DNA of 64,000 nucleotides. Origin: [Flexibacter] sp. ATCC 35103. Lineage in GTDB: Bacteria > Bacteroidota > Bacteroidia > Flavobacteriales > Flavobacteriaceae. Of the stretch, positions 11,101-56,487 are shown in pieces; the stretch's first letter is position 1, and every line of letters starts with the position of its first letter. The stretch covers positions 321,523 to 385,522 of the forward strand of contig NZ_MTQF01000003.1 of assembly GCF_001975985.1 (NCBI RefSeq), read 5' to 3'. Made by a program: the position numbers and the translations under genes. The notes under the pieces were generated by a model. The model was not told the DNA's origin and did no database searches. It saw only the letters and a program-made list of their open reading frames with translations.

Positions 11101-14100
11101 GATAACTCTGAAATTAGAGTAAATGTTACTAATGCTAACGGATATAGTATGTCTTACAGTATTAATAATGGAGGAACTTATCAAACAAATCCTGTGTTTT
11201 CTAATTTACAACCTGGTACTTATAATGTAGTAGTAAGATATGGTATAACTTATACTCCTGAATTTGGTCAGCCTACTATTAAATATTGTTCAGATCCTGC
11301 GGTACAAAAAATCATTTTAGGACCAACTTCTGCTGTTACAGCATCTGGTGGTGTTGCAGCATTGGCAGGATGTACATTAGGTCAGCAAGGTGGTAAATTA
11401 AGAATTAATAATGCACAAGGAGGAACGACTCCTTATCAATACAGTTTTGATGGTGGTGCAACATGGCAGGCTACAAATGAAAAAGATGTATTGCCAGGTT
11501 CTTACATCTTAAAAATTAAAGATGCAGTTGGTTGTGAGTATACAATTCCTTACACGGTAACTCTGGATCAAAAACCAGCTGAACCAACTATAAAAGTTGA
11601 AGATCCGATATTTAATTGTAATGGTACTGCAACAAGTACTGTAACGGTTACAAACGGTACATCTGCAAACTATAAGTATGAATATTTTAGAAATGGTATT
11701 CCAAATACTCCAATTACAAATAACGTATTTGCAAATGTTCCTTCAGGAACTCATACAATTTCTGTTAAGTATACTGTAACTACAGTTTCTACTTATAGTA
11801 ACTTATTACAGGAAGATTTTGGTAAAGGTGGTTATACAACTACTCCAGGTATTAATCCTGCTTACTGTTTTGAAGATGAATCTACACCACACCCAGTTGG
11901 ATATCCTTGTGGAGCTTTTAACGATTACCAAATTAATGATGGTAAATATGCGGTAGCTAGTTCTATTAAAACAAACTTTGGAAATTCTTGGATTTTTGCA
12001 AAAGATCATACAGTTCCACAAGATCCGTTAGGAAGATTTTTATGTGTAAACGTAGGAGGTTCTGCAGGAATTGGTGGTATTTTATATAGTAAACCAATTA
12101 AAGATGTTATTGATAATCAGTCTGTAATTATTTCGTTATGGGCAGAAAACCTTATTGTTAAAACATCAACATCTCATGCTGATCCAAAATTAACGATTCA
12201 GTTAGTAAACAATTTAAATAATGTAGGTGGAGTAGAAGAAATTGTTGCTACTACAGATACATCAAACCCATGGGTTGTTCCTAAAACTGAAAAATGGGAA
12301 TATAAAGAGTTAACCTTAAATCCGGGTATTGGTAAAACTAATTTAAGTTTTGTAATTAGATCTTACAGTAATGAATTTAACGGTAATGACGTACTTATAG
12401 ATGATATCTGGGTTCGCCAGATTCCGGAATCTTGTCTTGCTACAAAAGATTTCCCAGTTGTTGTGGGTACAGATAAAGCGTTTTCAGCTGCAATTGTAGG
12501 TCATAAAGATCTTACTTGTTTTGGTGCTAATAATGGAGAAATCACTTTATCAGCTCAAAATTTTGGAACTGCTTATGGTTTCGATTATTCATTGGATAAT
12601 GGAACAACATGGACAAACTCTAAAACATCTCCTGTTACTGTTACCGGATTAACAGGTAAAACATATAATATTTTAATTCGTTACGATGATAAAGCTGCAA
12701 GTTGTAGTTTCCCATTTAGCCAGCCTATTGGTGTTCCAGCCGAATTAAAAATTGATGCAAAAGTTACTAAACTTGCAACTTGTACTACAGGTGCAACAAT
12801 TACAGCTACTGCAACAGGAGGAACTCCTGCTTATGAATTCGAATTAAGAGCTGCAAATGGTGTTACAGTTGTAAGAGCTTTCCAAAACACTGGAGTTTTT
12901 GCAAATGTCCCTACAGGAACTTATACTGTTGTAACCCGTGATCAATATGCGTGTTCTTCTACTGCGTCTGCGCAAGTAGTTGTAGATGCGCCAGTATTGC
13001 CAACAGCAAGTTTGGCTGCTACTTCAAATTATTGTTTCTCATCTAGTAAAGGAGCTACACTTGTAGTGACTGCAACAGGTACAGGAGCAATAACATATAG
13101 TTTAGATGGTGCGCCTGCACAAAACACGAATACATTTACAAATGTTGGACCAGGTACACATACTATTACAGTTACAGATAGCAATAACTGTCCTGTAACA
13201 ATTTCAAATATTGTTATTGCACCGGAATTAAAAGCGGCTGCTTCAATTACAAAAACATTAGATTGTACAACTCCTAATGCTACTATTAAAGTTGACATTA
13301 CAGATGGAGTTTCACCATATACTTATAAAGTTAAAAAAGATACCGGAGCTTATGGCGGTGTTGTAAATGTTACTGGTAATACATTTAATTACTCAGCTAC
13401 AACCGGAGCGGGACTTTATACTTTTGAAATTACAGACTCTAAAGGTTGTATTACAACTGTTACGGCTACTATTAGCCCAATTACTAATCCTACTGTTACT
13501 GCTTCACCAACACAAATTACTTGTAATGGTTTACAAAACGGTACAGTTGAATTACTTGGTGCGGGTGGTTCAGGCGGATATGAATATAACTTTAACAATT
13601 TAGGTTGGTCAACAAATACTTTATACTCTAATTTAAGTCCAAACGTTGATTATACGTATCAGGTTAGAGATAGCAAAGGATGTACTTCTGCAAGTGCAAT
13701 TATAAGATTAACGCAACCGGCTGTTGTAACAGGAACAATTGCTGCTACAACAATTAAATGTAGTGCTACAGGAACAGTTCCTGCAGTAGTTACAGTTACT
13801 GCTGGTGGCGGAACAGGTACTTACACGTATAGTTTTAACGGAACTACTAATTTTACAACAACAAATACATTCTCTACAACAACTGCAGGTACGGTTACTG
13901 CTTATATTAGAGATGCTAATAATTGTCAGCTTGGACCGTTATCTATTGCCATTGGTGCTTTAGATCAAATCACAGATATCACTATCGTTGATAGCGGATA
14001 CGATTGTTCTACAACTCCTCCAGGCGGACACGTAACTTTGACAGCTGTAAAAGCTGGAAGTTTAGCGACTATTACATACCAGATTATTTCTGGTCCTGCC

Positions 14101-17100
14101 GGATTTAATCCTGCAACAAATACAACAGGTGACTTTAAATCATTAGCTCCTGGTGATTATATTTTCCAGGCTACTGATACTGCTACAAATTGTTTATTTA
14201 CAAAAGGTCATACCGTAAAAGGTACTTCTGATATTACTGCTGGTGGTTCAGTACTTACAAATATTAAATGTTTTGGATCTACAGGAACTATTGAATTTAC
14301 AGTTAGTGGAGTAAAAGCAAGCGGATTCGATTATATTATTAGAAACGCTGCTAATACAATTATTCAGCAAGCTACAAATGTAAGCCAGGCAACAACAACT
14401 ATTGCTGTTACTGCTGCTCAGCCTGCAGGTACTTATACAATTACTGTAACAGACAGATTAACAAAATGTCAGGCTACTTATTCAGTTATTTTAGCGCAGC
14501 CAGCTGCTGTGTTAGATGTTACTGCAACGGCAACTACAGTAAATTGTAATAAATTTACAGCCGAAATTACAGCTACTACAACAGGAGGAACTCCTGCTTA
14601 CACCTATGCTGTTGCAAGACAAGGAGCTCCAGTTCCTACGGTTTATAATGATGTATTGACAGTTGATACTGCAAACGGAACAGTATTAAACTGGATTGTT
14701 TACGTTAAAGACGCTAATGGTTGTACAGATAATTTCCCAATCACTATCGCTGTAGATGCTAAACCGGTAATTAGTTTAGTTACTGTTGACAATCAATGTC
14801 AGACAGGTTCAACTTCAAGCTTTACTATTACGGCAAATGCTACAGGATTAAACCCTTTATCTTACAGTATTGATGGAACGAATTTCCAGCCAGGTAATAC
14901 TTTTACAGTAACTGCAGGAACATACACAGTTACAGTTAAGGATAAAAATGGTTGTACAACTAGTGCAGCTACTCCGGTAACTGTTTACCCTCAGGTATCT
15001 GCTTTGGCAGGTGTAACTAAAGAATTAGATTGTACTACTACTCCAGACGCCACTATCAAAGTTGATGTTAAAGGAGGAAAAGCACCATATACTTATACAG
15101 TAACAAAAGGATCGGGAACACCAAGTTCTCCGGTTGGTCCTATTGCCGGAACATCATTTACAATTTCTGTAACTCCGTCTAACGCTGATGGTTATACATT
15201 TGTAATTACAGATGCTAACGGATGTTCGACTACTACATCTACTACTGTTGCCCCAATTACAAACCCAACTGTTACTGCTGTAAAAGTTGATGCTTCTTGT
15301 AATGGTTCAGCAACAGGTTCTGTTCAGTTAACAGGAGCTGGTGGTTCAGGAGGATATACATACAGTTCTAATGGAACAACTTATGCATTAACTTCATTAT
15401 TCGAAAATTTAGCAGCAGGTTCATATACTTTCTATGTAAAAGACAGTAAAGGTTGTACAAATACTGTAACTGTAACTATTGGTCAGCCTACTACTTTAAC
15501 AGCTACTGCTACTGCTACTAATTTTACTTGTAGTGTTACAAATACAAAACAATCTGCTACGATTACAATTGCAGTACCAACAACTGGTACAGCTCCATAT
15601 GAATATAGCTTCAACGGAAGTCCATATAGCAACAATAATACCTTAACAATCAATGATAACGGAACAGATCAAACGATCAACTATTCTGTTAAAGATGCAA
15701 AAGGATGTACAACAGCAATTCAACAAATTGTTGTAAAAAAATTAGATCCTCCAATTATTGCATCAATTACCGGTACAGCAATTTTATGTTCTCCTGCTGC
15801 AAGTACTACAAGTACAGTAACAGTTACAACAACAAATGGTGTTGGAACTTTAGCTTATGTAATTACTGCTCCGGCTTCTGCTATTACAAACGTAACGGGA
15901 GCTACAACAGGAATTTTTACAGGATTAACTCCGGATACTTATACTTTTAAAGTTACTGATGCAAACGGATGTTTTGCAATTCAGTCTTATACCGTAAACA
16001 GTCTGACACCAATTGCTGTTACAGCATCTAAATTGACAGACGTTTTATGTTTTGGAGGAAATACAGGTTCAGCAAGATTCACGATCAGTGGCTTTAGCGC
16101 AACAGGAAATTATGCTGTTGCAGTAACTTCTACTCCTGCAGGATTACCTTATACAAATGTAACAACAGGAGATGTTATTACATTAAATGGTTTAGTTGCG
16201 GGTACTTATAACCTTGAGGTAACAGATAATACTACAAATTGTAAAGACAATAAATCAGTTACAATTACACAACCAACCCAAGCTCTTGCAGCTACTGTTG
16301 ATGTGGTAAATGCGAATTGTAATGTAACTACTTCAAAAGTGACAGTTAATGCTACTGGAGGTACTACAGCTTACTCTTATGCTTTTGTACAAAATAATGT
16401 TGCACCTACAGCAGGTGATTATGTATCAAATAACACTGCTAACCTTAACGCTACAATTACAGATTGGGATGTTTGGGTAAAAGACGCAAATGGTTGTTTG
16501 ATTAAATTAGATGTAGCAGTTACTACAGATATTGCACCTACTGTTACAGCTTCGGTTACAAATCAATGTACTTCAACAGGAACTTCTTTTGTGATAAAAG
16601 CTGTTGGTACAGGAGGTGTTGCACCTTTAACGTATTCTATCAGTAATGGTGTTACGCCTAGCCCTGCAGATACTTTTACAGTTACTTCTCCGGGAACATA
16701 TATTGTTACGGTTAAGGATGCTAATAATTGTACCGCTACAGCTACGGTTACAGTTAATTCTGTTTTAACAGCAAATGCTGTTTTAGTTAGCGATATTACT
16801 TGTTTAACTCCTGCTGGAGCAAGTATTACTATTAATGCAGGCGGAGGTTTAGCTCCTTATTCATATTTAGTTTCTACAGATGGCGGAGTAACTTATGGTA
16901 CATCTCCGGATTTAGTTGGAAACACATTTACAACAACTGTAGCCGGTGATTACTATTTTCAAGTAACTGACGCAGCAGGTTGTAAAAAAGTTACCAATAA
17001 AGTTACTACAACAACACCGCAAAGTATTGCTGTAACAGCTACAAAAGTTGACCCAACTTGTAATGCTTACACAGATGGTTCTATCAAATTGGTAGCTACA

Positions 17101-20100
17101 TCAGGAGTTTCTCCTTTTACTTACAGTATTGATAACGGTGCTACTTATGTATCTACAAATGTTTTTGGAGGTTTAGCTGCAGGAACTTATGACTATTTCG
17201 TTAAAGATTCTAAAGGTTGTATTTCTGCACCTGCAACAATTACGTTGAATAATCCAGCTCCAATTGTGGTTAATATAGTGCGTAATGCAATTTTATGTAA
17301 CTTAAATACTCCTGGTAGTTTTGACCTTAATGTAGTTTCAGGTGGAGTTGCTCCATACGTTTACAGACTATACGATAATACATTTACACAAATAGATACC
17401 TATACTGAAACAGGCGCTGCGGCAACTGCAGTTCATAAATTTGCAAACTTAAACTTTGGTGATTATTATATTACCGTTGTAGATGCAGTTGGTTGTGAAT
17501 TTAAAAGTGGTAAATTAAGAATTGAAACACCACCTTATTTGAGCATGACTGCGGTTATAGATTCAAACAATTGTGCTACAGGTGTAAATGTTACAGTGAC
17601 TACTTCAGGAGGTACACCAGATTATAAATATTCTATTTTTGGACAACCTTTAACGGAAAGCCCTGCGCAAACAAGTCCAACTTATACATTTATAGGTTTA
17701 CAACACGGAACTACTTATTACTTACAAGTAAAAGATGCTAATGATTGTATCTCTATTTTAGAATTTAAAACTCCTCCTCCTCCTTCAGGAATAGTAATTA
17801 CTGGTACAACAGCAACTAATGTTACTTGTACTGGTACTTCAACAGGAACATTACAATTTACTGTTAGCGGTTACGATGCTACAGTTTCTGTAATTAATTA
17901 TGTTGTTTTAAATGCTTTGACTTTATTACCGGTTACTCCACCAATTGGCGGAACATTAACAGGTCCTGCAGGTGGTCCGGTTTCTTATACGATACCAAAT
18001 TTAAAAGCAGGAAGCTATGTTTTAAAAGTTTCTGAGTCTACAGGTACATTATGTTCTAATGCTTATACATTTGACATAACACAACCGGCACAACCACTTA
18101 AAACTGCTATAACAGCAGTTGTAGATGCTACTTGTAATGTAGATGCTCAGGTTACCCTAACAACAACAGGAGGAACAGGTCCTTATAAATATGCTGCTGG
18201 AGCTGTTGGTTTCACGCCTACAGTTTTCAATACAGGCAATGTTTTGAGCTTAAACTATGCAACAAGAACCAATTGGGATATTGTTGTTCAAGATGCAAAT
18301 GGTTGTACAGACAGAGTTAGTACAACAATATCTTTAGCACCAAGTCCGGTAATTGCTTTAGCAGTTGTAGACAAATGTGTGGCTGAAGGAACTTATGTAG
18401 TGAGAGTTTCTCAAACTACTGCAGGTGTTGCACCTTATTCTATAAGTGTAAACAACGGTTTATATACAAGTATTCCTGGTTTACCTTATGACGTTACAGG
18501 TCTTAATTCAGGTTCAAATACAATTAGCATCAAAGATGTTAACGGTTGTATTGACACTAAATCGATCGTAATCGAAAAACCTCTTTTAGTAGTACCTGCT
18601 ATTACTAAATTACCAACTTGTGCGAATAACGATGGAGTTATAAAATTGACACCTTCTGGAGGTTCAGGTACTTATTCATATAGTATCACTCCTAATGTGG
18701 GAACTATTTTAGGTAATGTTATTTCAGGTGTTCCTGCAGGTGCTTATACAATTACTATTACAGATACAAATACATTGTGTACTGCAAATGCTCCGGTTGA
18801 GTTATCTGCTCCAACACCTGTAGATTTTACTGCTGTTGTAATTGATGCTTCTTGTAACGGAGCTAGTGATGGTACGATTACTGTAAATCTGGCTGCTAAC
18901 AGCGATAATCCGGTTTACACGTATTCTATCTTACCAGTTCCTCCGGGATCAGTACAAACAAATAACATATTCTCTAACTTACCTCAGGGAACGTATTCTA
19001 TTACAGTATTCTCAGGTAGAGGATGTTCATTGTCTAAACCTTTCACAGTTGGACAACCAGCAATTCTTGCAGCTACTGCAGCAGTAACACCATATTCTTG
19101 TAACACAAGTAATGTTGCTCAGCCAGCAGTTGTAACAGTAAATGTTACGGCAGGTACAGGAACAGCTCCATACAAATACAATTTTGATGGTTCTGCGGTA
19201 TACAATGACGCTAATACATTAGCAGTTCTGGATAATGGTACAGTACAAACTATTCACTATTATGTTAAAGATGCTAAAGGCTGTACATTTGATAATACGG
19301 TAACAGTTAATCCATACCAAAAAATTACAAACTTAACTTTTGCTGGTGCTGCAATAACTTGTAATGCTCCAACAACTAGTATTACAGTTTCTGTAGTAGG
19401 TGGATATGCAATTACTAAATATGAAATCGTATCACCAATTACGGTTGATAACGGTACATCAAATGTTTTTGCAGGACTTGGACCAGATACTTATGTTTTC
19501 AAAGTAACTGATGCAAATGGATGTTCATTCCAAAAATCATACACAATTAAACCAGTAACAAATATTACAGTTTCTGGTCAATTAATAAAAGATGTTAGCT
19601 GTAACGAAACAGCAGCAACTCCAAATGGTTCTGTAGAATTTACAGTAGGTAATTTTGCCGGATCATATACCTATTCAATCAACGGTGTTGCCGTTGCAGG
19701 AACGCATACAAACCCTAAAGTTACTCTTGTAAATTTAGCTGTAGGTTCTTATAAAATTGATGTTGTAGACGTAGCAACAGGTTGTGTCGCTACAAATACT
19801 GTAGTGGTTAGCCAACCAGCTGTACCATTAGATTTATCTTTAGTTTCTAATGTTAATGCAAACTGTAGTTTTGGTGCAAAAGTGAGCGTGATAGGTTCTG
19901 GAGGAACTCCAAACTATACTTATGCTTTCGTTGCAACTCCTGCAACTCCGGTTGCAACTGATTATAAAGCTAGTCCTAATGCTATTTTAGATCCGTCTAA
20001 AACATGGATTGCCTATGTAAAAGATTCAAAAGGATGTATCGCACAATTACCATTAACTATCGCAACAGATCCTAGACCAACAATCGACCCAATAACTGGT

Positions 20101-23100
20101 GTTTGTTATGATGGTGCTCCGGTAAATGTTACTTTGGTTGGTCATGGTGTTGGTCCATTAATGTACAGTATTGGTAACGGATTTAAATCTAGTCCAGATT
20201 TCGTATTAAATGCACCGGGATCTTATACTTTCTATGTAAGAGATGCAAACAATTGTGATGCAGTTACACCGTATGTTTACAACCTTGATCAGGAATTATT
20301 GTTAGATGCTAAATTGCAGGATTTAACATGTGCCGCTCCTAACTTAGCTACAATTACACTAACAGCTACTCAGGGATCATTGACATATAATAATTATCAG
20401 GTTTCATTTAATGGAGGTGCACCTACACCGGCAACTTCTCCATACACAACAAATGTTCCTGGAACATATACTTTTACAGTAACAGATAGTAAAAACTGTC
20501 AGGCAGTTTCACTTCCTGTAGTTGTAAATCCTATTGTAATGCCTACAATTTCTACAACTCACGCAGACGTAAGTTGTAATGGTGGAAATACCGGAAGTAT
20601 TACAATCACAGCCGGAAGCGGACTTCCTGCTTACGAATACAGTATTAATGGTACAACATATCAGCCATCTAACATTTTTGCTGGATTAACAGCAAATACT
20701 TACACAGTTTACGTAAGAGATGCTAAAAAATGTGTTGTAAGTGAGACTGTTGTAATTTCAGAGCCAGCTACATTAACAGCAACAGCAGTAGTTACACCAT
20801 TTGGTTGTAGCCTGACTAATGCTCCTCAGGATGCAGTTGTTACCTTAACAGCTGCTGATGGTACACCTGGATATAAATATAGTTTTGATAATGGAGTTAC
20901 TTTTGGAGATTCTCCAACATTAACTGTAAGTACTATAGTTACTCCAAAAACTGTTTACTATGTTGTAATCGATTCTAAAGGATGTAGAGTTGCAAACTCT
21001 GTAGTCGTTAATCCTTACACACCGCCAACAGATATGAATATTACTTCAACACCAATTTACTGTAACACTGTAGGAGGAACTTCTACAGCTACTGTAACTG
21101 GAGTAACTGGTGGTGTAGGACCATATAAATATGAAATTGTTTCGCCTGCAACAGCAGTAGCAAACAATACAACTGGTGTTTTCCCAGGATTATTACCAGA
21201 TAATTATCAAATAAAAGTTACAGATGCTAACGGTTGTAGTACAACTAAAGCGATTGTGATAAAAGAGTCTGAGAAAATCAATGTAACTGCTCAGTTATTA
21301 AGCGATGTATTATGTAATGGTGGTAATACAGGTTCAGTAGCCTTTACGGTAACGAACTATATTACTCCGGCTAATTATGGATATAGTATCTCGCCAATTG
21401 CAGGAACTGCTACAAAAGTTGGAGATGTTATTACATATACAGGTTTAACAGCAGGTAGTTATACATTTACTGTTTTAGATAATATTTCAGGATGTCAGCG
21501 TCAGGTAATTAATTTTGTAGTTGGTGAGCCGGCTGTTCTGGATTTCACATCTACTGCAACAAATATTAATTGTAACAATAAAAAAGCTATAATTACAATT
21601 ACTGCTACAGGCGGAACGCAAGCTTATGGTTATGCAGCAGTAGTTCAGGGATCTCCGGTTCCAACAACGTTTGGAGCTAATCCTACGATTGTTGTAGATA
21701 CAAACAATGGAGCTAACATGGTTTGGGATATTTATGTAAAAGATCTTAACGGATGTCCAGCTACAAAAACTCAAACAATTATTGAGGATGCATTACCAAC
21801 AACTCCAAGTGTGGCTCCGTTCAGTCAATGTCCGGATGCAACAAACGGAACGTATACATTTACGATTACCGGAGTTACAGGTGTAGCACCAATCCTTTAT
21901 AGTATTGGTAACGGATTCCAATCTAGTCCAACATTCACAGTTACTGATGCTCGTTCTTATGATGTAACAGTAAAAGATGGTAATGGTTGTGAAGTAACAA
22001 CAACAGCTGTAGTAAATATTTTACCACCATTAGTTTTAGATGTTGTGGTAACTAAATTGCCAGGTTGTAACTTCGTAGATGGTATAGTTACTGCTACGGC
22101 TACAGGAGGAGCAACTCCTGCAAATTATAGCTATAGTTTAGATGGTAACTTTGGTCAGACGTCAGGAACATTTAATAATGTTAATCACGGACATCATACT
22201 ATTATTGTAACAGATCTAACAACTAATTGTACAGATACAGTTGAGTTTGATATTGAAAAAGCTACAGACATTCAAGGTTTACTTGTAAAAGGAACTGATG
22301 TAACTTGTAATGGATTTACAGATGGTACTATTACTGCTACTATTGATGAAACAGGTGTAAATAATAATCCTATTTATTACTATAGTATTACTGCAGGACC
22401 AGTTACAAGACCAGATCAAACATCTGGAGTGTTTACAGGATTACCTGTAGGACAATATACCGTAACAGTTACTTCAGGTAGAGGTTGTAAAGCATTAGAA
22501 GATGTTACAATAGGTCAGCCAGCTGTAATTACAGTTCCTGATCCGGTTGTTACTCAATTTGGTTGTACTCCTGGTACTAACGGAAATAATCTGGCTACAA
22601 TTACAGTAAACAATGTAACTGGTGGTTCTGGTAACTTCATTAAATATGAATTTATTAAAGGAGCAACAGTACTTCAAAGCAGTACATCAAATGTATATAC
22701 TGTATTTGATCTTAGCGGAGGTATTTATACTGTAAATGTTTATGATGAAAACGGATGTGTTGGATCAGCAACATCAATCATCGATATTAAACCTTTCATT
22801 AGTTTAGATGATATTGATATTACAATTAATAAAAACATCACTTGTGTAAACAATGAAGATATAACTGTAACTGTTAAAACAACAGGTACACCAGCTCCGG
22901 CATTCTTGTTATACAAAATTGAAGGTATTGGCGGAAGTACATTTACAGATAACAATACAACAGGAGTATTTACAGGATTGCCAATAGGAAATTATTTAAT
23001 TACTGTTGAAAACCCTGATACACATTGTTCAATACAAGAAGCACATTATGTTTCAAATCCTAACACATTTGAAATTAAAGTTAATCCAATTGCTACAGAA

Positions 23101-25611
23101 ATTTGTTATGGTACAAGTACCGGAAGCGTTGAATTAAATTTTGTAGACAATCAAACTGATCCTCTTGATGAAGCTGGTCCTTTTGATTACACTATTACAG
23201 GTGGTCCTGCAGTAATCTCAGGAACAACTACAAGTGCAGGTCCTGAATTGATTTCGAACCTTGTTGCAGGTACATATACCGTAACGGCAAAATTAAGAGC
23301 TTTACCTGAATGTACTGTTTCGACTGTGTTTACAATAGCACAGCCTTCAGCTCAATTAGAGGTTAAAGTATTAACTAGTCCAATTACTTGTACATCTGCA
23401 AATTATGATGACGGTGAAATCTCTGCTTCTGCAGTAGGTGGATGGGATAATAACTATACTTATGAATTAGCATTAAACGGTGCTCCAATAGTTCCTTACA
23501 GAACTGATGGAAACTTTACAGGATTAAAAGCTGGAGTTTACACAGTAAGTGCTAAAGATGGTAAAGGATGTATCGATTCTGAAATAGTGACATTAGTTGA
23601 GCCGGATCCAATCCAGGTAAATGCTACGCCAAATGCGGCAATGTTATCTTGTTTTGGAGGAAGAGACGGTATCATTACAGTTCATACAACAACAGGTGGT
23701 CAGGGAAGTAACTATTCGTATACATTAAACTACTTATCAGTAAACCCGGTTGCTGTTTCAGGTCCGCAAATTGATCCTGTTTTCGCAGGATTACCTGCCG
23801 GAACATATAGTATTACAGTTTCTGACGGATACAACTGTTCAATAACATCAGCTAATATTGTTATTACAGAACCAACAGAAATTGTTGCTGACTTAACTTT
23901 AGCAACATCACAAACATGTGATACAGAAACGACCCTTACATTAAGTGCAACAGGCGGATTAGCTCCTTACACTTACAGTGCAGATGGTACAACATATAAT
24001 GTTACTCCATTTATAAGTTCAGTATCATTCCAGGTGCCGGTTGGTAAATACCAGTACTTTGTAAAAGATGCTAATAACTGTGTGGCTAGTATTTCTAACG
24101 AAATTAAAATAGACGCTTTAGAGCCTCTGTTATTAGACTTAGATATTACAAATGCAGTTGTAAAATGTACAGGTGATTTTACAGGCGTTATCGTTGCTGA
24201 AGGAAAAGGTGCTTTAGGAAACTATCAATATACTTTAGAAACAAGTGCGGGAGTTATATTACAAGGGCCTCAGACTAATGGTAGATTCGAAGGTCTGATC
24301 GCAGGAAATTACAATGTTAGAGTTGTAAGTGGCGATTGTGATGCAGTAGTTAAATCGGTAGAAATTAAAGAACCTGCAGTTGGTTTAAGTGCTACATATG
24401 TAAAAAACAATGTTACTTGTTTCGGAGATAACAATGGTAAAATTGTGATGAGTTACACAGGTGGTACAGGTGTAGTTAAATATGCTATCTCACCAAACTT
24501 GAATCAGTTTGACACTAAAAACACATTCGAGAAATTAACAGCTGGTATCTACACTATCGTTACACAAGATGAAAACGGTTGTTACAAAATAGATGATATA
24601 GAGATTACACAACCATTGCCTGTTATTGTTAAAGAACTGGCAAACTCTATGATTCCTGAAGTTTGTAAAGACGACAAAGACGGAGCATTTAGTATCGAAA
24701 TTAAAGGAGGTACAGCACCATACAGCGTAAGTCTTGATGTTAAAAACGGAACTTATACTGTAGGAGCAATTGGTCAGACAATCTTTGACTTTACTAACCT
24801 TTCAGGAGGTGTTCATACGGTTTATGTTAAAGATGCTGAGGGATGTGCGGTTGAGTTTGTAGAGAATATGCCTTTACCGGTAGTTCTTAACCCAATTGTT
24901 GAAGTAAATTATGACTGTGTAAACAATGCACAATCTAACATGGTAACTATTACAGTTGATGCAAGCAATATAGATCTTACACAAATTGATTATTCACTTG
25001 ATAACGAAGCAGGTCCTTTCCAGACAAGCCACATCTTTACAAATGTTGCTCCTGGTAGACACTTTATTGTAGCAAGACATACAAATGGATGTATTGTACC
25101 AACAATTAGTTTCGACATCAAAGCATACGATCCGTTAACTCTTATTGAGACTACAGGACAACAGGAAATGAATATTATTAATGTTACTGCTGCTGGTGGT
25201 TCACCTGCTTATGAATACAGTTTCAACGGAGAGCCGTTTACATCTTCAAACAAATACAAAATCTACAAAACAGGAGATTATGTAGTAGTAGTAAGAGATC
25301 AAAACGGATGTACAGCGACAATTACTGTTCATGCTATTTACGTAGATGTTTGTCTTGACAATTACTTTACCCCTAACGGAGATGGTATTTATGATACATG
25401 GGGTCCTGGTTGTACAAATATTTACAACAACCTTGAGTTCTCAATCTTCGACAGATACGGTCGTGTAATTGCTAAATACCACTACGGTCAAAAATGGGAT
25501 GGTAAATACAATGGCGAAGAATTACCAACAGGAGATTACTGGTATGTTCTTAAATTAAAAGACGAGAAAGATGCGAGAGAGTTTGTAGGACATTTCACTT
25601 TATACAGATAA
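8137..25611 (+). CDS. sprB: SprB-like giant gliding adhesin exported by the type IX secretion system
   Basis: 5,824 residues. A signal peptide ends near FVISQ (residue 27); an alternative start is the Met two codons later (8143). Residues about 28-370 form a unique N-terminal domain, followed by a DUF11-like segment (about 380-470, 'NQNVTLGQQLNYEIGFKN'). From about residue 700 there are dozens of SprB-type repeats (PF13573-like), each starting with a Cys in contexts such as CNG and ending in DxxGC, which probably form disulfides. Residues about 1224-1434 are a separate beta-sandwich insert. The last 90 residues ('FTPNGDGIYDTWGPG...FSIFDRYGRVI') are a typical type B sorting domain. In F. johnsoniae SprB is the mobile cell-surface adhesin driven by the gliding motor, and its export needs SprF, encoded next here. 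Size, repeats, sorting domain and synteny all agree. Confidence 0.9.
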   Translation: MIMKTPTNLRLILIALIFFQSYFVISQNLKPFTPRFDKRLKGDMLLIGNNILNRETNNRSPKDAYNGNGYNSDFNMKYIDIDNDNTTFSSSSATLTVPKPACYKIVYAGLYWGAILQQNDRTGIEKVKLKLPTGGYNDITGQIIHDANAAPIGGDNNKAYACYADITSLVAGQTNAQGLYTVANVKSSEGTNGGTGLSAGWSIFVVYEDPTLPAKFITSFDGFSGIGGATTLDIDVAGFKTIPTGPVRVKFAFAALEGDQPIAGDYLQINGTTITATNAANAIIRPSNNFFNSSVTFVDPATDKTEDFLNRNPASTNTLGYDAGILNINNPGTLLRPGGIVIDNNETSAKIKLGSTQDVYFYYFNAFAVDIIEPHIVLTKIVKNSAGTDIGNQNVTLGQQLNYEIGFKNTGNDDAKSLTIRDQLPINIIFNYPTDINPLPAGVSIQSYDPATRSIVFKIDDSVVKANSLSDKIISFKVKVVPDCNSLSEACSNSIDNSAYATYKGTLNPDFQISDDPSVNTNTGCILTPKATNFLVGVDGCKYTATATLCKDDVNLVAANGYTSYTWFSDEARTKQIGTGQTLTVKEPGIYYVYNLAAAPCRSIYQAFTVTRFGATTTNPVIPYAKAPYKGEVLICPNNGKELPNLFLCGANDSRLIETHISDGSTLVWEKLDEASCAAPISASCANEGTSCAWTQVATGPNYEAKIAGQYRLTLNYAGGCFNRFYFNVFTNSLNPTEKHTDIICGKPGTITIGGVPAGYEYSINGTNYQASNIFNVTTAGFYTVYIRQTGVNLNPCIFTVPNIQIRQRNFAVVSEVTQPLCYGEKGRIKVAVNDANPQYYYKVYNNGSLLYNVGPVAASEYTFDNLTTDQNYVVEVSTDDGCKDTKYIYIGKVWNEYKATATLVEPLTACSDGKIKITTEGGNSPYSYFINSDTVFQSSNEYVVTAPGTYVIKIVDKNNCTLTRTVVVPSNTKPTYTITNTNSTCYNDNSEIRVNVTNANGYSMSYSINNGGTYQTNPVFSNLQPGTYNVVVRYGITYTPEFGQPTIKYCSDPAVQKIILGPTSAVTASGGVAALAGCTLGQQGGKLRINNAQGGTTPYQYSFDGGATWQATNEKDVLPGSYILKIKDAVGCEYTIPYTVTLDQKPAEPTIKVEDPIFNCNGTATSTVTVTNGTSANYKYEYFRNGIPNTPITNNVFANVPSGTHTISVKYTVTTVSTYSNLLQEDFGKGGYTTTPGINPAYCFEDESTPHPVGYPCGAFNDYQINDGKYAVASSIKTNFGNSWIFAKDHTVPQDPLGRFLCVNVGGSAGIGGILYSKPIKDVIDNQSVIISLWAENLIVKTSTSHADPKLTIQLVNNLNNVGGVEEIVATTDTSNPWVVPKTEKWEYKELTLNPGIGKTNLSFVIRSYSNEFNGNDVLIDDIWVRQIPESCLATKDFPVVVGTDKAFSAAIVGHKDLTCFGANNGEITLSAQNFGTAYGFDYSLDNGTTWTNSKTSPVTVTGLTGKTYNILIRYDDKAASCSFPFSQPIGVPAELKIDAKVTKLATCTTGATITATATGGTPAYEFELRAANGVTVVRAFQNTGVFANVPTGTYTVVTRDQYACSSTASAQVVVDAPVLPTASLAATSNYCFSSSKGATLVVTATGTGAITYSLDGAPAQNTNTFTNVGPGTHTITVTDSNNCPVTISNIVIAPELKAAASITKTLDCTTPNATIKVDITDGVSPYTYKVKKDTGAYGGVVNVTGNTFNYSATTGAGLYTFEITDSKGCITTVTATISPITNPTVTASPTQITCNGLQNGTVELLGAGGSGGYEYNFNNLGWSTNTLYSNLSPNVDYTYQVRDSKGCTSASAIIRLTQPAVVTGTIAATTIKCSATGTVPAVVTVTAGGGTGTYTYSFNGTTNFTTTNTFSTTTAGTVTAYIRDANNCQLGPLSIAIGALDQITDITIVDSGYDCSTTPPGGHVTLTAVKAGSLATITYQIISGPAGFNPATNTTGDFKSLAPGDYIFQATDTATNCLFTKGHTVKGTSDITAGGSVLTNIKCFGSTGTIEFTVSGVKASGFDYIIRNAANTIIQQATNVSQATTTIAVTAAQPAGTYTITVTDRLTKCQATYSVILAQPAAVLDVTATATTVNCNKFTAEITATTTGGTPAYTYAVARQGAPVPTVYNDVLTVDTANGTVLNWIVYVKDANGCTDNFPITIAVDAKPVISLVTVDNQCQTGSTSSFTITANATGLNPLSYSIDGTNFQPGNTFTVTAGTYTVTVKDKNGCTTSAATPVTVYPQVSALAGVTKELDCTTTPDATIKVDVKGGKAPYTYTVTKGSGTPSSPVGPIAGTSFTISVTPSNADGYTFVITDANGCSTTTSTTVAPITNPTVTAVKVDASCNGSATGSVQLTGAGGSGGYTYSSNGTTYALTSLFENLAAGSYTFYVKDSKGCTNTVTVTIGQPTTLTATATATNFTCSVTNTKQSATITIAVPTTGTAPYEYSFNGSPYSNNNTLTINDNGTDQTINYSVKDAKGCTTAIQQIVVKKLDPPIIASITGTAILCSPAASTTSTVTVTTTNGVGTLAYVITAPASAITNVTGATTGIFTGLTPDTYTFKVTDANGCFAIQSYTVNSLTPIAVTASKLTDVLCFGGNTGSARFTISGFSATGNYAVAVTSTPAGLPYTNVTTGDVITLNGLVAGTYNLEVTDNTTNCKDNKSVTITQPTQALAATVDVVNANCNVTTSKVTVNATGGTTAYSYAFVQNNVAPTAGDYVSNNTANLNATITDWDVWVKDANGCLIKLDVAVTTDIAPTVTASVTNQCTSTGTSFVIKAVGTGGVAPLTYSISNGVTPSPADTFTVTSPGTYIVTVKDANNCTATATVTVNSVLTANAVLVSDITCLTPAGASITINAGGGLAPYSYLVSTDGGVTYGTSPDLVGNTFTTTVAGDYYFQVTDAAGCKKVTNKVTTTTPQSIAVTATKVDPTCNAYTDGSIKLVATSGVSPFTYSIDNGATYVSTNVFGGLAAGTYDYFVKDSKGCISAPATITLNNPAPIVVNIVRNAILCNLNTPGSFDLNVVSGGVAPYVYRLYDNTFTQIDTYTETGAAATAVHKFANLNFGDYYITVVDAVGCEFKSGKLRIETPPYLSMTAVIDSNNCATGVNVTVTTSGGTPDYKYSIFGQPLTESPAQTSPTYTFIGLQHGTTYYLQVKDANDCISILEFKTPPPPSGIVITGTTATNVTCTGTSTGTLQFTVSGYDATVSVINYVVLNALTLLPVTPPIGGTLTGPAGGPVSYTIPNLKAGSYVLKVSESTGTLCSNAYTFDITQPAQPLKTAITAVVDATCNVDAQVTLTTTGGTGPYKYAAGAVGFTPTVFNTGNVLSLNYATRTNWDIVVQDANGCTDRVSTTISLAPSPVIALAVVDKCVAEGTYVVRVSQTTAGVAPYSISVNNGLYTSIPGLPYDVTGLNSGSNTISIKDVNGCIDTKSIVIEKPLLVVPAITKLPTCANNDGVIKLTPSGGSGTYSYSITPNVGTILGNVISGVPAGAYTITITDTNTLCTANAPVELSAPTPVDFTAVVIDASCNGASDGTITVNLAANSDNPVYTYSILPVPPGSVQTNNIFSNLPQGTYSITVFSGRGCSLSKPFTVGQPAILAATAAVTPYSCNTSNVAQPAVVTVNVTAGTGTAPYKYNFDGSAVYNDANTLAVLDNGTVQTIHYYVKDAKGCTFDNTVTVNPYQKITNLTFAGAAITCNAPTTSITVSVVGGYAITKYEIVSPITVDNGTSNVFAGLGPDTYVFKVTDANGCSFQKSYTIKPVTNITVSGQLIKDVSCNETAATPNGSVEFTVGNFAGSYTYSINGVAVAGTHTNPKVTLVNLAVGSYKIDVVDVATGCVATNTVVVSQPAVPLDLSLVSNVNANCSFGAKVSVIGSGGTPNYTYAFVATPATPVATDYKASPNAILDPSKTWIAYVKDSKGCIAQLPLTIATDPRPTIDPITGVCYDGAPVNVTLVGHGVGPLMYSIGNGFKSSPDFVLNAPGSYTFYVRDANNCDAVTPYVYNLDQELLLDAKLQDLTCAAPNLATITLTATQGSLTYNNYQVSFNGGAPTPATSPYTTNVPGTYTFTVTDSKNCQAVSLPVVVNPIVMPTISTTHADVSCNGGNTGSITITAGSGLPAYEYSINGTTYQPSNIFAGLTANTYTVYVRDAKKCVVSETVVISEPATLTATAVVTPFGCSLTNAPQDAVVTLTAADGTPGYKYSFDNGVTFGDSPTLTVSTIVTPKTVYYVVIDSKGCRVANSVVVNPYTPPTDMNITSTPIYCNTVGGTSTATVTGVTGGVGPYKYEIVSPATAVANNTTGVFPGLLPDNYQIKVTDANGCSTTKAIVIKESEKINVTAQLLSDVLCNGGNTGSVAFTVTNYITPANYGYSISPIAGTATKVGDVITYTGLTAGSYTFTVLDNISGCQRQVINFVVGEPAVLDFTSTATNINCNNKKAIITITATGGTQAYGYAAVVQGSPVPTTFGANPTIVVDTNNGANMVWDIYVKDLNGCPATKTQTIIEDALPTTPSVAPFSQCPDATNGTYTFTITGVTGVAPILYSIGNGFQSSPTFTVTDARSYDVTVKDGNGCEVTTTAVVNILPPLVLDVVVTKLPGCNFVDGIVTATATGGATPANYSYSLDGNFGQTSGTFNNVNHGHHTIIVTDLTTNCTDTVEFDIEKATDIQGLLVKGTDVTCNGFTDGTITATIDETGVNNNPIYYYSITAGPVTRPDQTSGVFTGLPVGQYTVTVTSGRGCKALEDVTIGQPAVITVPDPVVTQFGCTPGTNGNNLATITVNNVTGGSGNFIKYEFIKGATVLQSSTSNVYTVFDLSGGIYTVNVYDENGCVGSATSIIDIKPFISLDDIDITINKNITCVNNEDITVTVKTTGTPAPAFLLYKIEGIGGSTFTDNNTTGVFTGLPIGNYLITVENPDTHCSIQEAHYVSNPNTFEIKVNPIATEICYGTSTGSVELNFVDNQTDPLDEAGPFDYTITGGPAVISGTTTSAGPELISNLVAGTYTVTAKLRALPECTVSTVFTIAQPSAQLEVKVLTSPITCTSANYDDGEISASAVGGWDNNYTYELALNGAPIVPYRTDGNFTGLKAGVYTVSAKDGKGCIDSEIVTLVEPDPIQVNATPNAAMLSCFGGRDGIITVHTTTGGQGSNYSYTLNYLSVNPVAVSGPQIDPVFAGLPAGTYSITVSDGYNCSITSANIVITEPTEIVADLTLATSQTCDTETTLTLSATGGLAPYTYSADGTTYNVTPFISSVSFQVPVGKYQYFVKDANNCVASISNEIKIDALEPLLLDLDITNAVVKCTGDFTGVIVAEGKGALGNYQYTLETSAGVILQGPQTNGRFEGLIAGNYNVRVVSGDCDAVVKSVEIKEPAVGLSATYVKNNVTCFGDNNGKIVMSYTGGTGVVKYAISPNLNQFDTKNTFEKLTAGIYTIVTQDENGCYKIDDIEITQPLPVIVKELANSMIPEVCKDDKDGAFSIEIKGGTAPYSVSLDVKNGTYTVGAIGQTIFDFTNLSGGVHTVYVKDAEGCAVEFVENMPLPVVLNPIVEVNYDCVNNAQSNMVTITVDASNIDLTQIDYSLDNEAGPFQTSHIFTNVAPGRHFIVARHTNGCIVPTISFDIKAYDPLTLIETTGQQEMNIINVTAAGGSPAYEYSFNGEPFTSSNKYKIYKTGDYVVVVRDQNGCTATITVHAIYVDVCLDNYFTPNGDGIYDTWGPGCTNIYNNLEFSIFDRYGRVIAKYHYGQKWDGKYNGEELPTGDYWYVLKLKDEKDAREFVGHFTLYR
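11806..12440 (+). other. Non-repeat beta-sandwich insert within SprB (residues about 1224-1434)
   Basis: Between repeat units the protein carries about 210 residues with a different composition: 'LLQEDFGKGGYTTTPG' at the start, a conserved aromatic core ('SWIFAKDH', 'TEKWEYKELTLNPG') and the ending 'DVLIDDIWVRQI'. Such endings (ID-D/N-I-x-V) are typical of jelly-roll, carbohydrate-binding-like modules. It is a candidate ligand-binding head within the otherwise fibrous adhesin. No specific ligand can be read from the sequence. Confidence 0.55.
12780..22620 (+). repeat. Higher-order repeat of about 1.7-1.8 kb in sprB
   Basis: Sets of consecutive SprB repeats recur in the same order about every 570-605 residues. 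One marker unit, with a Trp before the closing motif ('NWIVYVKDANGC'-like), occurs near 14545, 16315, 18130, 19860 and 21565, with a Trp-less version near 12780. A second marker (the 'ELDCTTPNATIKV' type) occurs near 13260, 15030, 16795, 18615, 20325 and 22065. A third ('TNFTCSVTN' type) occurs near 13755, 15530, 17275, 19100, 20805 and 22560. Equal spacing of three independent markers shows the adhesin grew by duplicating blocks of about seven units. Confidence 0.75.
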
Positions 25612-25655
25612 CAAAATAAGAGCCCCTGATGATGTTATCTAAAAAAATTATTACA

Positions 25656-26630
25656 ATGAAAAAGTTTATTTTATCTTTAGTACTCATGGCTGTAACAACA
25701 AGTTACAGCCAAGAGTTAAACCTACCAGTTTTTACACAATATTTGGCGGACAACCCCTTTGTTATCTCACCAGCCTTTGCCGGTATTGGGGATAACCTTA
25801 GAATTAGGGCAAACGGTCTTACACAATGGGTGGGGATTAAAGATGCGCCAGATAACCAATCGGTTTATGCTGATTTTAGAGTACTGGATCGTTCCGGAGT
25901 TGGTATTAATGTTTATAATGATAAAAATGGTTATACGCGTCAAACAGGAGCTAAAATTTCATTTGCGCATCACATCATTTTAGATTACTATTCTAAGCAA
26001 TATCTGTCTTTTGGACTTTCCTATAACATCAATACTTTCCGTATTGATACAGATGAATTTACTAGTACGCCCAATCAGCCTTTTATTGATCCGGGAGTTA
26101 CAGACAATCGTTATAATGCAAATAGTAACTTTGATATTAGTGCTTTGTACCGTAATAAAAGTTTCTATGTAAGTTTTAACGCCAACAACGTTTTAAAGAA
26201 AAATACCGATAAATACAGAGGAGTAGAACCTAGTTTACTTTCAAACTATCAGGTATATTCAGGATACGTTTTTAAAGACGGAGAAAACAGCCGTATCGAA
26301 TATGAACCGTCTGTTTACTACCAATATTTTGCCAGCGATAAACGTTCTACAACCGATTTCAACTTCAAATACAGACGTTACAATCGTTACGAAGATTATT
26401 ATTGGATAGGAGTTTCATACCGTTTCCTAAACGACCAGTTTCCTAAACCATTATCAGTTGGGCCAATGGTAGGTTTCATGAAATCTAAATTCTATTTTGG
26501 ATATTCATACCAGGTAATGTTCAACGATTTGGGTAACTATAACACAGGTACACACTCGATAACTATTGGTTTCGATTTCTTACAATCGATCAGTAACTGT
26601 CCTTGTACACAAAGTCCGGTTCACGATTAA
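25656..26630 (+). CDS. sprF: SprF-like outer membrane protein (PorP/SprF family)
   Basis: About 324 residues from the ATG at 25656, which opens a good signal peptide (MKKFILSLVLMAVTTSYSQ); the reading frame also has ATGs at 25629 and 25632, but these add nine polar residues before it. The start of the mature protein ('LPVFTQYLADNPFVISPAFAG') is the hallmark of the PorP/SprF family of T9SS-associated beta barrels, and the rest alternates strands with aromatic ends up to 'HSITIGFDF'. It begins 44 bases after sprB. In F. johnsoniae SprF is needed for SprB to reach the cell surface but not for other T9SS cargo, so it is read here as the dedicated partner of the adjacent adhesin. Confidence 0.9.
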   Translation: MKKFILSLVLMAVTTSYSQELNLPVFTQYLADNPFVISPAFAGIGDNLRIRANGLTQWVGIKDAPDNQSVYADFRVLDRSGVGINVYNDKNGYTRQTGAKISFAHHIILDYYSKQYLSFGLSYNINTFRIDTDEFTSTPNQPFIDPGVTDNRYNANSNFDISALYRNKSFYVSFNANNVLKKNTDKYRGVEPSLLSNYQVYSGYVFKDGENSRIEYEPSVYYQYFASDKRSTTDFNFKYRRYNRYEDYYWIGVSYRFLNDQFPKPLSVGPMVGFMKSKFYFGYSYQVMFNDLGNYNTGTHSITIGFDFLQSISNCPCTQSPVHD

Positions 26631-55530: not shown

Positions 55531-55596
55531 GCTCCAGAGGAGCAAAATATTTATAGCAATTGAATTGCCGAAAAAGGTTTAAAGCTCCAGAGGAGC
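55531..55596 (+). repeat. Two REP-like palindromes downstream of the RAYT gene
   Basis: GCTCCAGAGGAGC occurs at 55531-55543 and 55584-55596; the first is followed by AAAATATTTATAGCAA, the conserved tail of these units. The second lies ten bases past the transposase stop (55606). Both point in the same direction as the units at 56335-56450. Confidence 0.85.
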
Positions 55597-55605
55597 AATA
55601 TATAA

Positions 55606-56064
55606 TTAAACGTTTTCAAAAAGATATTCATTTCTAAAATCAATATTGAATAATTTTAAAAATGCAATATATTCTTCTCTTAATGTTTTTGTTTTATGAT
55701 GTTCTTCTTGATTCTCAATGTATTTTATAACATTGGCCAATTGTGAATGTCCATATGAAAAAGCACCAAAGCCAGTCTGCCATTCAAATTTTCCATTTAT
55801 CCATTTTTGTTCATTTATGAATTTGGATGAACTTGATTTAATATCTCTTACTAAATCAGATAATGATATATCCGGTTTTATTCCAACTAAGATATGAATA
55901 TGATCTGGCATTCCATTAATGGCAATCAGTTTTTGTTTGTGATTGGTGATAATTCCCGTGATATATTTATAAATCTCGTCTTTGTTATTTTTTGAAATTA
56001 AGTTTTGTCTTCCCTTTACAGCAAAAACAATTTGGAAATATAACTGAGAATAAGTGTTTGCCAT
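55606..56064 (-). CDS. REP-associated tyrosine transposase (IS200/IS605 TnpA-like, RAYT)
   Basis: 152 residues. The HUH motif is 'MPDHIHILVG' (His55 and His57), and the single catalytic Tyr is Tyr115 in 'VIKYIENQEEH', with Gln119 as metal ligand. This is the Y1 transposase fold that nicks and joins single-stranded DNA at hairpins. The gene is flanked on both sides by short GCTCC...GGAGC palindromes, as RAYT genes are by REP elements, and no IS200/IS605 end pair or second transposase is seen. It is therefore read as a domesticated, single-copy RAYT that spreads or maintains the palindromes. All catalytic residues are present. Confidence 0.88.
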   Translation of the reverse strand: MANTYSQLYFQIVFAVKGRQNLISKNNKDEIYKYITGIITNHKQKLIAINGMPDHIHILVGIKPDISLSDLVRDIKSSSSKFINEQKWINGKFEWQTGFGAFSYGHSQLANVIKYIENQEEHHKTKTLREEYIAFLKLFNIDFRNEYLFENV

Positions 56065-56151
56065 GTTTTAAAATTTATTAATTGGTAAAGCTAATTAATA
56101 AATTTAATTTGTAGGATATTTCTTTTTTATTGTGCAAGAATAAATATGTCA

Positions 56152-56451
56152 CCCCGCTGGGGCTTTATGGTAACGGCGATAAATTATGCTACAGATATTT
56201 CGCTCCGCTGGAGCTTTACTTGAATGGTAATATTGGGCTATAAATATTTAGCTCCTCTGGAGCTTTTATATAATATACAGCTATTACTAGAGGATCAGAA
56301 TATTTACAGCAAAAATTATGGCACATCGCACAAAGCTCCAGCGGAGCTAAATATCTATAGCAATGAATTCTGTTATCGCGATTTAAGCTCCAGCGGAGCG
56401 AAATATCTGTAGCAAAAATTATAAGATATTGTTCAAAAACTCCAGCGGAGC
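56152..56451. repeat. REP-like palindrome cluster upstream of the RAYT gene
   Basis: Six palindromes lie in this gene-free 420-base gap: CCCCGCTGGGG at 56152-56162, GCTCCGCTGGAGC at 56202-56214, GCTCCTCTGGAGC at 56251-56263, GCTCCAGCGGAGC at 56335-56347 and 56387-56399, and CTCCAGCGGAG at 56440-56450; a worn copy is near 56284-56300. The first three have the tail on their left (GCTATAAATATTT type) and the last three have it on their right (AAATATCTATAGCAA type), so the cluster contains head-to-head inverted pairs. The three-base centre varies (AGA, AGC, GCT, TCT) with compensating symmetry. Confidence 0.88.
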
Positions 56452-56487
56452 GAAATATTTATAACAATATAAATTTGTATATAAATA

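Follow-up and report, generated by a model that had tools for sequence, protein, structure and literature searches.

Positions 55,531 to 56,451 of the window, i.e., the whole 64-kb stretch of [Flexibacter] sp. ATCC 35103 DNA that was analysed, hold a small transposase gene surrounded by short palindromes, and the question raised by this locus is what kind of system the gene and the palindromes form. The gene, tnpA, lies on the minus strand (55606..56064) and encodes a 152-aa protein of the HUH/Y1 type; its reading frame was intact and scored 101 bits on the Pfam Y1_Tnp profile (cut-off, 23). The pattern GCTCC-N3-GGAGC with at most one mismatch was found seven times in the 64 kb (six times exactly), always within 55531-56451, compared with a mean of 0.20 matches and a maximum of 2 in dinucleotide shuffles of the window (n = 100). 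Eight palindromes were obtained when a unit with GCCCC-AGC-GGGGT was included (55531+, 55584+, 56163-, 56214-, 56263-, 56335+, 56387+ and 56439+), reproducing both the count of at least eight and the order of two forward, three reverse and three forward that an earlier note had read from the letters; a decayed ninth was recognized by eye.

On the 3' side of tnpA, an outer hairpin unit (55531..55559, plus strand; GCTCC-AGA-GGAGC with the tail AAAATATTTATAGCAA, found by pattern match) is separated by 53 bp from an inner unit located directly 3' of the gene (55584..55606, plus strand; GCTCCAGAGGAGC-AATATATAATT). On the 5' side, the inner unit (56141..56163, minus strand; GCCCC-AGC-GGGGT with the tail GACATATTTATT) is 51 bp from an outer unit (56186..56214, minus strand), beyond which a second outer unit (56235..56263, minus strand) and a decayed outer-like unit are located (56284..56312, plus strand); the latter equals the consensus at about 20 of 29 positions, judged by eye. 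Three further outer units follow on the plus strand (56335..56363, 56387..56415 and 56439..56467), the last with ACTCC-AGC-GGAGC and the tail TATAACAA. The tail described in the earlier note as conserved (ATAT...TATAG, TGTAG or TATAA) was present on six of the eight palindromes; those at 55584 and 56163 carry another tail and represent a second, inner type of unit. An Rfam search of the window gave no match. Elsewhere in the window, a 5824-aa frame (8137-25611, plus strand) follows a 1598-aa frame (3215-8011) with AKAKADAEALQAKLAAD-type repeats in tandem arrays (4255-6979), and another frame is located at 25629-26630; by their size and repeats, the frames in 3215-26630 could be a giant surface-adhesin or gliding operon.

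The transposase was complete, as had been claimed. H55, H57 and Y115 were invariant in an alignment of 42 members, the window protein included, and so were W95, Q96, Q119 and H123 (the members were chosen, with broken genes left out). Its identity as a RAYT in the class-2 sense was not upheld. The protein scored 38.2 bits on the NCBIfam profile REP_Tyr_transpos, below the cut-off of 80, compared with 179 bits for the E. coli RayT control, and 78.3 bits on the NCBIfam IS200/IS605 profile (NF033573; cut-off, 55). All 42 aligned members matched the IS200/IS605 profile at E <= 0.001, and 40 of them matched REP_Tyr_transpos weakly. The class-2 motif Y---NP was absent, and Q119, invariant in the 42 members, occupies the position where RAYTs have N. 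An AlphaFold model of TnpA (mean pLDDT 83) had the ISDra2 and IS608 transposases as its first fold matches (E about 1e-9 to 1e-8, from 1.8e-9), with TnpA-REP 4er8 coming later (E 2e-5); a sequence search for structures returned the IS200/IS605 type only.

The motifs DHIH, WQ and YIENQEEHH of the window protein agree with the signature DH[IV]H, WQ, Y---Q--HH given for IS200-like subclass 1.2 in Quentin et al. 2018 (PMC6006769), where the members are about 148 aa long, of low copy number and from Bacteroidetes. Copy number was low here too: of 249 genomes, the 117 that gave a match carried between 1 and 6 relatives each, and the genome of the window carried four (among the matches listed). Judged by profiles, alignment and this signature, TnpA is a protein of IS200-like subclass 1.2 and not a canonical class-2 RAYT. 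In the table of the same paper, REP is given as 'no' for subclass 1.2, and its text describes the subclass as lacking, in general, the terminal structures typical of IS200. In the automatic REP search used there, a hairpin qualified if GTAG/GTGG preceded its stem on the 5' side by 0-2 nt, if the basal stem measured 7 nt or more, and if a copy occurred no further than 1 kb from the gene; 5-bp stems without GTAG were therefore undetectable by it. We take the twin-hairpin finding described below to correct the description of the subclass, not to exclude the protein from it.

The unit consensus, drawn from 127 unit calls in 21 stretches of the window's genome, was AAA, a 5-bp stem arm, a 3-nt loop (mostly AGC or AGA), the second arm and GANATATTTATAGMAA. 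In this consensus ATAT, the pairing and CC/GG were fixed in advance by the search pattern, which accepted only near-complete pairing; AAA, the loop and TATAG were not. No GT[AG]G guide was present 0-2 nt 5' of the hairpin in the position frequencies of the 127 calls, and AAA stood there instead. The earlier note had placed the variation between palindromes in symmetric centres; variation was found, mainly in the stems (GCTCC, GTCCC, GCCCC, ATCCC, GCTTC and others), with both arms changing together. In a set of 64 distinct units, pairing extended to 98.1% of the stem cells and 48 cells had changed on both sides, as high a value being reached in 0 of 500 shuffles; this statistic leans towards pairing, because the units had been pre-picked for CC/GG and at least four of five paired positions.

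Outer units, with the tail ATATTTATAG ending in TATAG or nearly so, and inner units, with another tail, were arranged in a regular order. When 125 units in 16 stretches of the same genome were compared, 34 of the 35 outer/inner neighbours of one direction had the outer unit first, 48-56 bp ahead of the inner one, and the reverse order was seen twice. Inner units faced each other at 25-46 bp, and outer-outer neighbours were common too (25 and 5), forming arrays. Six complete outer-inner-inner-outer frames were called in the 16 stretches, their outermost hairpin centres being 124-149 bp apart, and the remaining frames had no called inner unit. Around tnpA the twin hairpins are mirrored, with the outer one followed by the inner one about 51 bp further in. 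At the locus, with hairpin centres at 55537, 55590, 56157 and 56208, tnpA stands between the two inner units of the same kind of frame, and gene-less frames of about 140-160 nt are scattered between genes. Of the 26 loci of clade A, to which the window's gene belongs, 19 had a hairpin pair at 48-55 bp 3' of the gene, and the number was again 19 for the 5' side, where a few of the pairs were outer-outer (hand count from the listing of the loci). The fixed pitch of about 51 bp suggests that one protein assembly holds the outer and the inner hairpin.

Two dispersed elements, folded as single DNA strands, each gave one long hairpin, as the inverted REP pair of a REPIN does. The predicted energies were -34.7 kcal/mol (z -7.3) for one and -47.9 kcal/mol (z -12.7) for the other, the latter from a stretch a few bases short of the last hairpin. 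Head-to-tail arrays of outer units were also observed, with 11 in a row in L054 (G000:C23, ~381 kb), mostly 38-52 bp apart, and at least eight in G114:C36 (~76 kb). The copy number in such arrays may vary between strains and could be a typing marker.

The genome-wide count that the earlier note had proposed as a check showed that the palindromes were not confined to the locus. The generic pattern had 78 exact matches in 5.7 Mb (control, 0) and 111 matches with at most one mismatch (control, 1), and the narrower GCTCC pattern had 52 matches with at most two mismatches (control, 0). A REP-like system with inverted pairs is thus dispersed in a Flavobacterium genome, as had been proposed. Inverted flanking REPs together with genome-wide over-representation, by which class-2 systems are judged, were both found for the tnpA locus. 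The repeats were intergenic, with no overlapping reading frame of at least 150 codons in 10 of 12 clusters, and several clusters were tandem arrays. When 180 kb were aligned with G075, the closest genome in the sample (~92% DNA identity), three of the five repeat sites compared were shared, one was tandem-multiplied in the genome of the window and one was present only there, with other DNA in G075; most of the A sites compared are common to the two genomes, not new. At the site L044 the element was present in G000 and G075 and abruptly missing from G235 and G218. Empty and occupied sites differed by 216 bp, more than the element itself, no target duplication was visible at L044, and the site could be a deletion. 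It was the one abrupt presence/absence site, and no clean insertion with target duplication was found. The few new sites and mostly shared ones indicate that dispersal is real but slow; the data that bear on a putative mobilisation of the repeats by their cognate TnpA are the association with the gene and this presence/absence pattern.

Among 249 genomes of the genus, 117 had a relative of TnpA at E <= 1e-10. In a tree, clades C, D, A2, E, F and G each formed a single group and clade B did so weakly (81/67); the tree was used unrooted only, the outgroup branches being 4.3 to 4.6 long and attaching inside clade A. The palindrome beside the gene was GTTCC-gcta-GGAAC with ATATTGGTAG in clade B and the same stem with ATCTCATCGGTAG in clade C. 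Clade D had GTTCC or GAGCC units linked by ATATTGTAGGGC to CGGAT/TGGAC hairpins, clade A2 had tails of the GACCTG type, and clades E, F and G had other palindromes again. In clade D the units carry GTAG just 5' of the second hairpin (ATATTGTAGGGC-CGGATtttaATCCG; L102-L107, L038, L139, L141-L143), resembling the guide of class-2 REPs although the clade-D protein is of class 1.

Repeats were counted by exact patterns because counts by the covariance model, which scored about 28 candidates per genome, saturate. At least two copies of the A repeat were present in 25 of 28 genomes with clade-A tnpA versus 20 of 221 without, which supports an association between palindrome and transposase across the relatives. 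The clade-A set counts G102 (frameshifted) and G187 (a fragment at a contig end) as present, and moving both to absent gave 23 of 26 versus 22 of 223. C repeats reached two copies in 12 of 12 genomes with clade-C tnpA versus 9 of 237 without, and D repeats in 32 of 40 with clade-D tnpA versus 20 of 209 (the C and D sets are identity and length classes among the matches listed, to about E 1e-30, partly checked in the tree). Over the 249 genomes, palindrome types A, C and D were most strongly associated with their own tnpA clade. Non-cognate pairs were associated as well (odds ratios 3.8 to 65.7), e.g., A palindromes in 11 of 12 genomes with a clade-C gene versus 34 of 237; shared ancestry would account for this, since a large-genome lineage would carry all types. 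In the 47 genomes of at least 4.9 Mb, genome size being only a rough control for shared ancestry, the cognate pairs alone were significant (p 1.7e-5, 2.3e-7 and 1.8e-5; off-diagonals, 0.06 to 0.71).

The A-type gene occupied one chromosomal neighbourhood: hemF, the gene for coproporphyrinogen oxidase, was no more than 1.5 kb away in 24 of 26 loci, with TnpA identity as low as 69%. The exceptions were L068 and L080, and in L083 another gene intervenes. The genome of the window has a single A-type tnpA, and the next relative among the matches listed was 50% identical. Near-identical gene copies at several sites, as expected of an insertion sequence, were not found in this genome. The median dN/dS of tnpA, computed on those 58 of 91 pairs in which dS was below 1.5, was 0.08 (0.02 to 0.13), a little higher than the hemF value but close to it. 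Broken genes were present as well: an internal stop in G051, G131 and G047, a frameshift in G102 (L118), and in G191 (L080) NHIY in place of DHIH, by which the second catalytic His is lost. Residence at hemF, purifying selection and some broken copies together mark tnpA as resident but open to loss, and not as an active insertion sequence. All five genomes with decayed clade-A genes still hold A-type repeats, as in stages of gene decay. Other subclass-1.2 Y1 genes, of clades D and E, were located about 30-75 kb from hemF in many inspected genomes (G000:C14 ~429 kb and relatives; L144, L145, L150, L138), as if this stretch collected them.

Palindromes occurring equally in genomes that lack the gene had been named by the earlier note as evidence against its reading, and this was found in part: the 20 of 221 genomes with at least two A repeats and no clade-A tnpA were all drafts, of 8 to 180 contigs. 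Repeats were numerous in some of the tnpA-less genomes (71 in G114, 41 in G121, 33 in G184 and 29 in G202), and G004, with 13 A repeats, gave no match in a Y1 search at E <= 0.001. In contrast, all eight single-contig genomes with at least two A repeats have the gene (G042, G051, G109, G136, G150, G180, G191 and G207). For the 16 of the 20 orphan-repeat genomes whose hemF region was fetched, an assembly gap at that site was rejected as the reason for the missing gene. The region contained neither tnpA nor N runs, and in 13 of the 16 hemF was directly beside a gene that Pfam assigns to DUF4421; hemF lay beside an aldolase in G154 and beside other DNA in G114 and G179. A 30-base tnpA-like match beside hemF in G114 (E 0.008) is too weak to be called a remnant. 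A different Y1 gene serving the orphan repeats was also considered and rejected: the 30 Y1 loci inspected, of 49 listed in 12 orphan-repeat genomes, had no exact A unit nearer than 1.5 kb. Because all 20 genomes are drafts while the single-contig genomes all have the gene, gene loss or gaps elsewhere are favoured. We read the orphan A repeats as the result of gene loss with slower repeat loss; a tnpA may be hidden in a gap elsewhere in these drafts, and another clade may act in trans.

A scan of named genomes gave 573 relatives, of which the best 80 were analysed (a few loci are shared with the 249-genome set). The hosts were mostly Bacteroidota, including Flavobacterium hungaricum, F. aquidurense, F. 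johnsoniae CI04, Chryseobacterium, Galbibacter, Mucilaginibacter and Pedobacter; others were MAGs labelled Ignavibacteria, Poribacteria, Verrucomicrobia and others, labels that may reflect binning errors. The inverted repeat across the gene exceeded the third-highest of 60 shuffles in 51 of 65 loci, compared with 7 of 63 in the far-flank control; 15 of the 80 loci, with short or shifted flanks, had been left out beforehand. In the 157 near flanks of the 80 loci, 113 of 189 hairpin pairs were 48-55 bp apart, versus 3 of 11 in those far flanks (~1 kb away) that were long enough. The last hairpin ended within 37 nt of the ATG in 47 of 68 hairpin-bearing 5' flanks (a count without a control set), which invites its reading as a translational brake of the kind described for IS200. 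Only two pattern matches, one of them beside tnpA, were found in 800 kb of Chryseobacterium panacisoli (reversed control, 0), showing with this one dispersed copy that strong amplification is not universal.

These results are best explained by a resident REP/REPIN-like system in which the enzyme is an IS200-like HUH transposase of subclass 1.2, not a class-2 RAYT, and the repeat unit is a twin hairpin; we give this reading a probability of roughly 0.74. It builds on the observed anatomy, mirrored ends, gene-less dispersed frames, clade-specific pairing, fixed locus and purifying selection, from which binding, cleavage and transposition of the repeats by TnpA are inferred. The recognised unit would be the twin hairpin, consisting of an outer hairpin (5-bp GC-rich stem, 3-nt loop, tail ATATTTATAG) and, about 51 bp in, an inner hairpin with a different tail. 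Two inverted modules would frame tnpA, and the gene-less module pairs (~140-160 nt) would be its non-autonomous partners. During replication the single strand would fold, a TnpA dimer would hold two hairpins, and Tyr115 would cleave near the TATAG tail, so that a hairpin unit is occasionally copied or moved to another intergenic site, with tnpA keeping its chromosomal place by vertical inheritance. The hairpin just upstream of the ATG may also curb translation, a putative autoregulation. A single-copy gene with scattered frames suggests a repeat-spreading system of the kind known from Proteobacteria, run by a branch reported without it. Of the earlier interpretation, the REP-like system linked to a transposase thus stood, the class-2 RAYT did not, and the twin-hairpin module had been missed.

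An ordinary IS200/IS605 insertion sequence with MITE/PATE derivatives, in which tnpA is mobile and the repeats are internally deleted copies, would account for the score on the IS200/IS605 profile (78.3 bits versus the cut-off of 55), the best fold matches to ISDra2 and IS608, and the resemblance of the dispersed units to the tnpA frame minus its gene. We consider it unlikely, however, given the single A-type tnpA with a next relative (among the matches listed) of 50% identity, the presence of hemF within 1.5 kb in 24 of 26 loci at identities down to 69%, the mirror-image ends and a purifying selection near that of hemF. Less probable again is a host function for the palindromes, as regulatory or terminator hairpins or as RNA stability elements; their position beside tnpA would then be incidental, and gene conversion or tandem slippage would have spread them. 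The repeat type follows the tnpA clade in large genomes, the twin spacing frames tnpA in the 80 loci and not the sequence about 1 kb off, and the window was without an Rfam match, all of which argues against host hairpins, even though 10 of 12 clusters are intergenic (no overlapping frame of at least 150 codons), several are tandem arrays and copies persist without tnpA.

A true class-2 RAYT/REP system whose usual motifs were lost appears very improbable. Its REPtron-like frame, low copy number and dispersed REPs would be as observed, and the fold match to TnpA-REP 4er8 (E 2e-5) and the weak matches of 40 of 42 members to REP_Tyr_transpos point the same way. Against these stand Q119 in place of Y---NP, a score of 38.2 bits below the cut-off of 80 (E. 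coli RayT, 179), the absence of GTAG 5' of the hairpin and the IS200/IS605-type structures as the only ones matched by sequence.

We would give even odds to a broader form of the resident twin-hairpin reading, namely a second, independent origin of REP/REPIN systems. Class-1 IS200-like transposases would have turned resident with a twin-hairpin REP of their own, of fixed 51-bp pitch (about five helical turns) and copied as a four-hairpin single strand of ~150 nt; the design would be kept across Bacteroidota and MAGs labelled as other phyla, with hairpin and tail sequences diverging by clade and several tnpA/repeat codes side by side per genome. The finding gives a repeat family to a branch of the enzymes for which none had been described, and the domestication of HUH transposases into REP systems seems to have occurred more than once. 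Parallel gene/repeat codes in one genome allow the matching of protein and hairpin to be tested directly in laboratory strains of the Flavobacterium johnsoniae type, and the constant pitch of 51 bp is a concrete structural prediction. The system would also explain many short intergenic palindromes in large Flavobacterium genomes.

No account of a subclass-1.2 REP/REPIN, or of a Flavobacterium REP with a transposase, was found in a literature search whose scope left subscription journals mostly outside. In the accessible parts of the papers concerned, RAYTs meeting the criteria of Nunvar 2010 (PMC2817692) were from gammaproteobacteria only, CGTC-tagged repeats were reported in Bacteroidetes among other phyla (PMC3733652), and a Chryseobacterium gene called RayT was discussed with no mention of repeats (PMC11194056). 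Many generic REP predictions were made in two Flavobacterium genomes in PMC12306157, in the accessible text of which the words 'transposase' and 'RAYT' do not occur.

The Flavobacterium TnpA shares its core fold and catalytic residues with IS608 and ISDra2 of the IS200/IS605 family, which also have small hairpins at the element ends. However, these are mobile insertion sequences, whereas the Flavobacterium gene stays near hemF and its ends are mirror-image twin hairpins. The PATEs of Haloquadratum walsbyi are non-autonomous palindrome elements related to an IS200-type transposase, and they are IS-derived and archaeal; to our knowledge, neither twin spacing nor a resident gene is known for them. 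Subclass 2.6 (Bertels group 5), also from Bacteroidetes, has atypical flanking secondary structures as well, but its proteins are class 2 (YIH[QN]NP) with a median of 179 aa, according to PMC6006769. The REPtrons and REPINs of RAYTs, as described in PMC2817692 and PMC8266576, likewise consist of a resident low-copy Y1 gene in an inverted REP frame, with dispersed intergenic head-to-head REPs and an own repeat family per gene. RAYTs are class 2, with Y---NP, a GT[AG]G guide and one hairpin per REP in those texts, whereas the Flavobacterium system is class 1, without GTAG, and each of its half-elements contains two hairpins spaced by about 51 bp. The subclass-1.2 proteins of PMC6006769 share with the Flavobacterium TnpA the motifs, a length of about 150 aa, low copy number, an origin in Bacteroidetes and closeness to the IS200 TnpA. 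The order of an outer hairpin and then an inner one about 51 bp in, mirrored around tnpA, is not described in the accessible part of that paper, and where REP is given there as 'no', conserved twin-hairpin frames and dispersed copies were found here.
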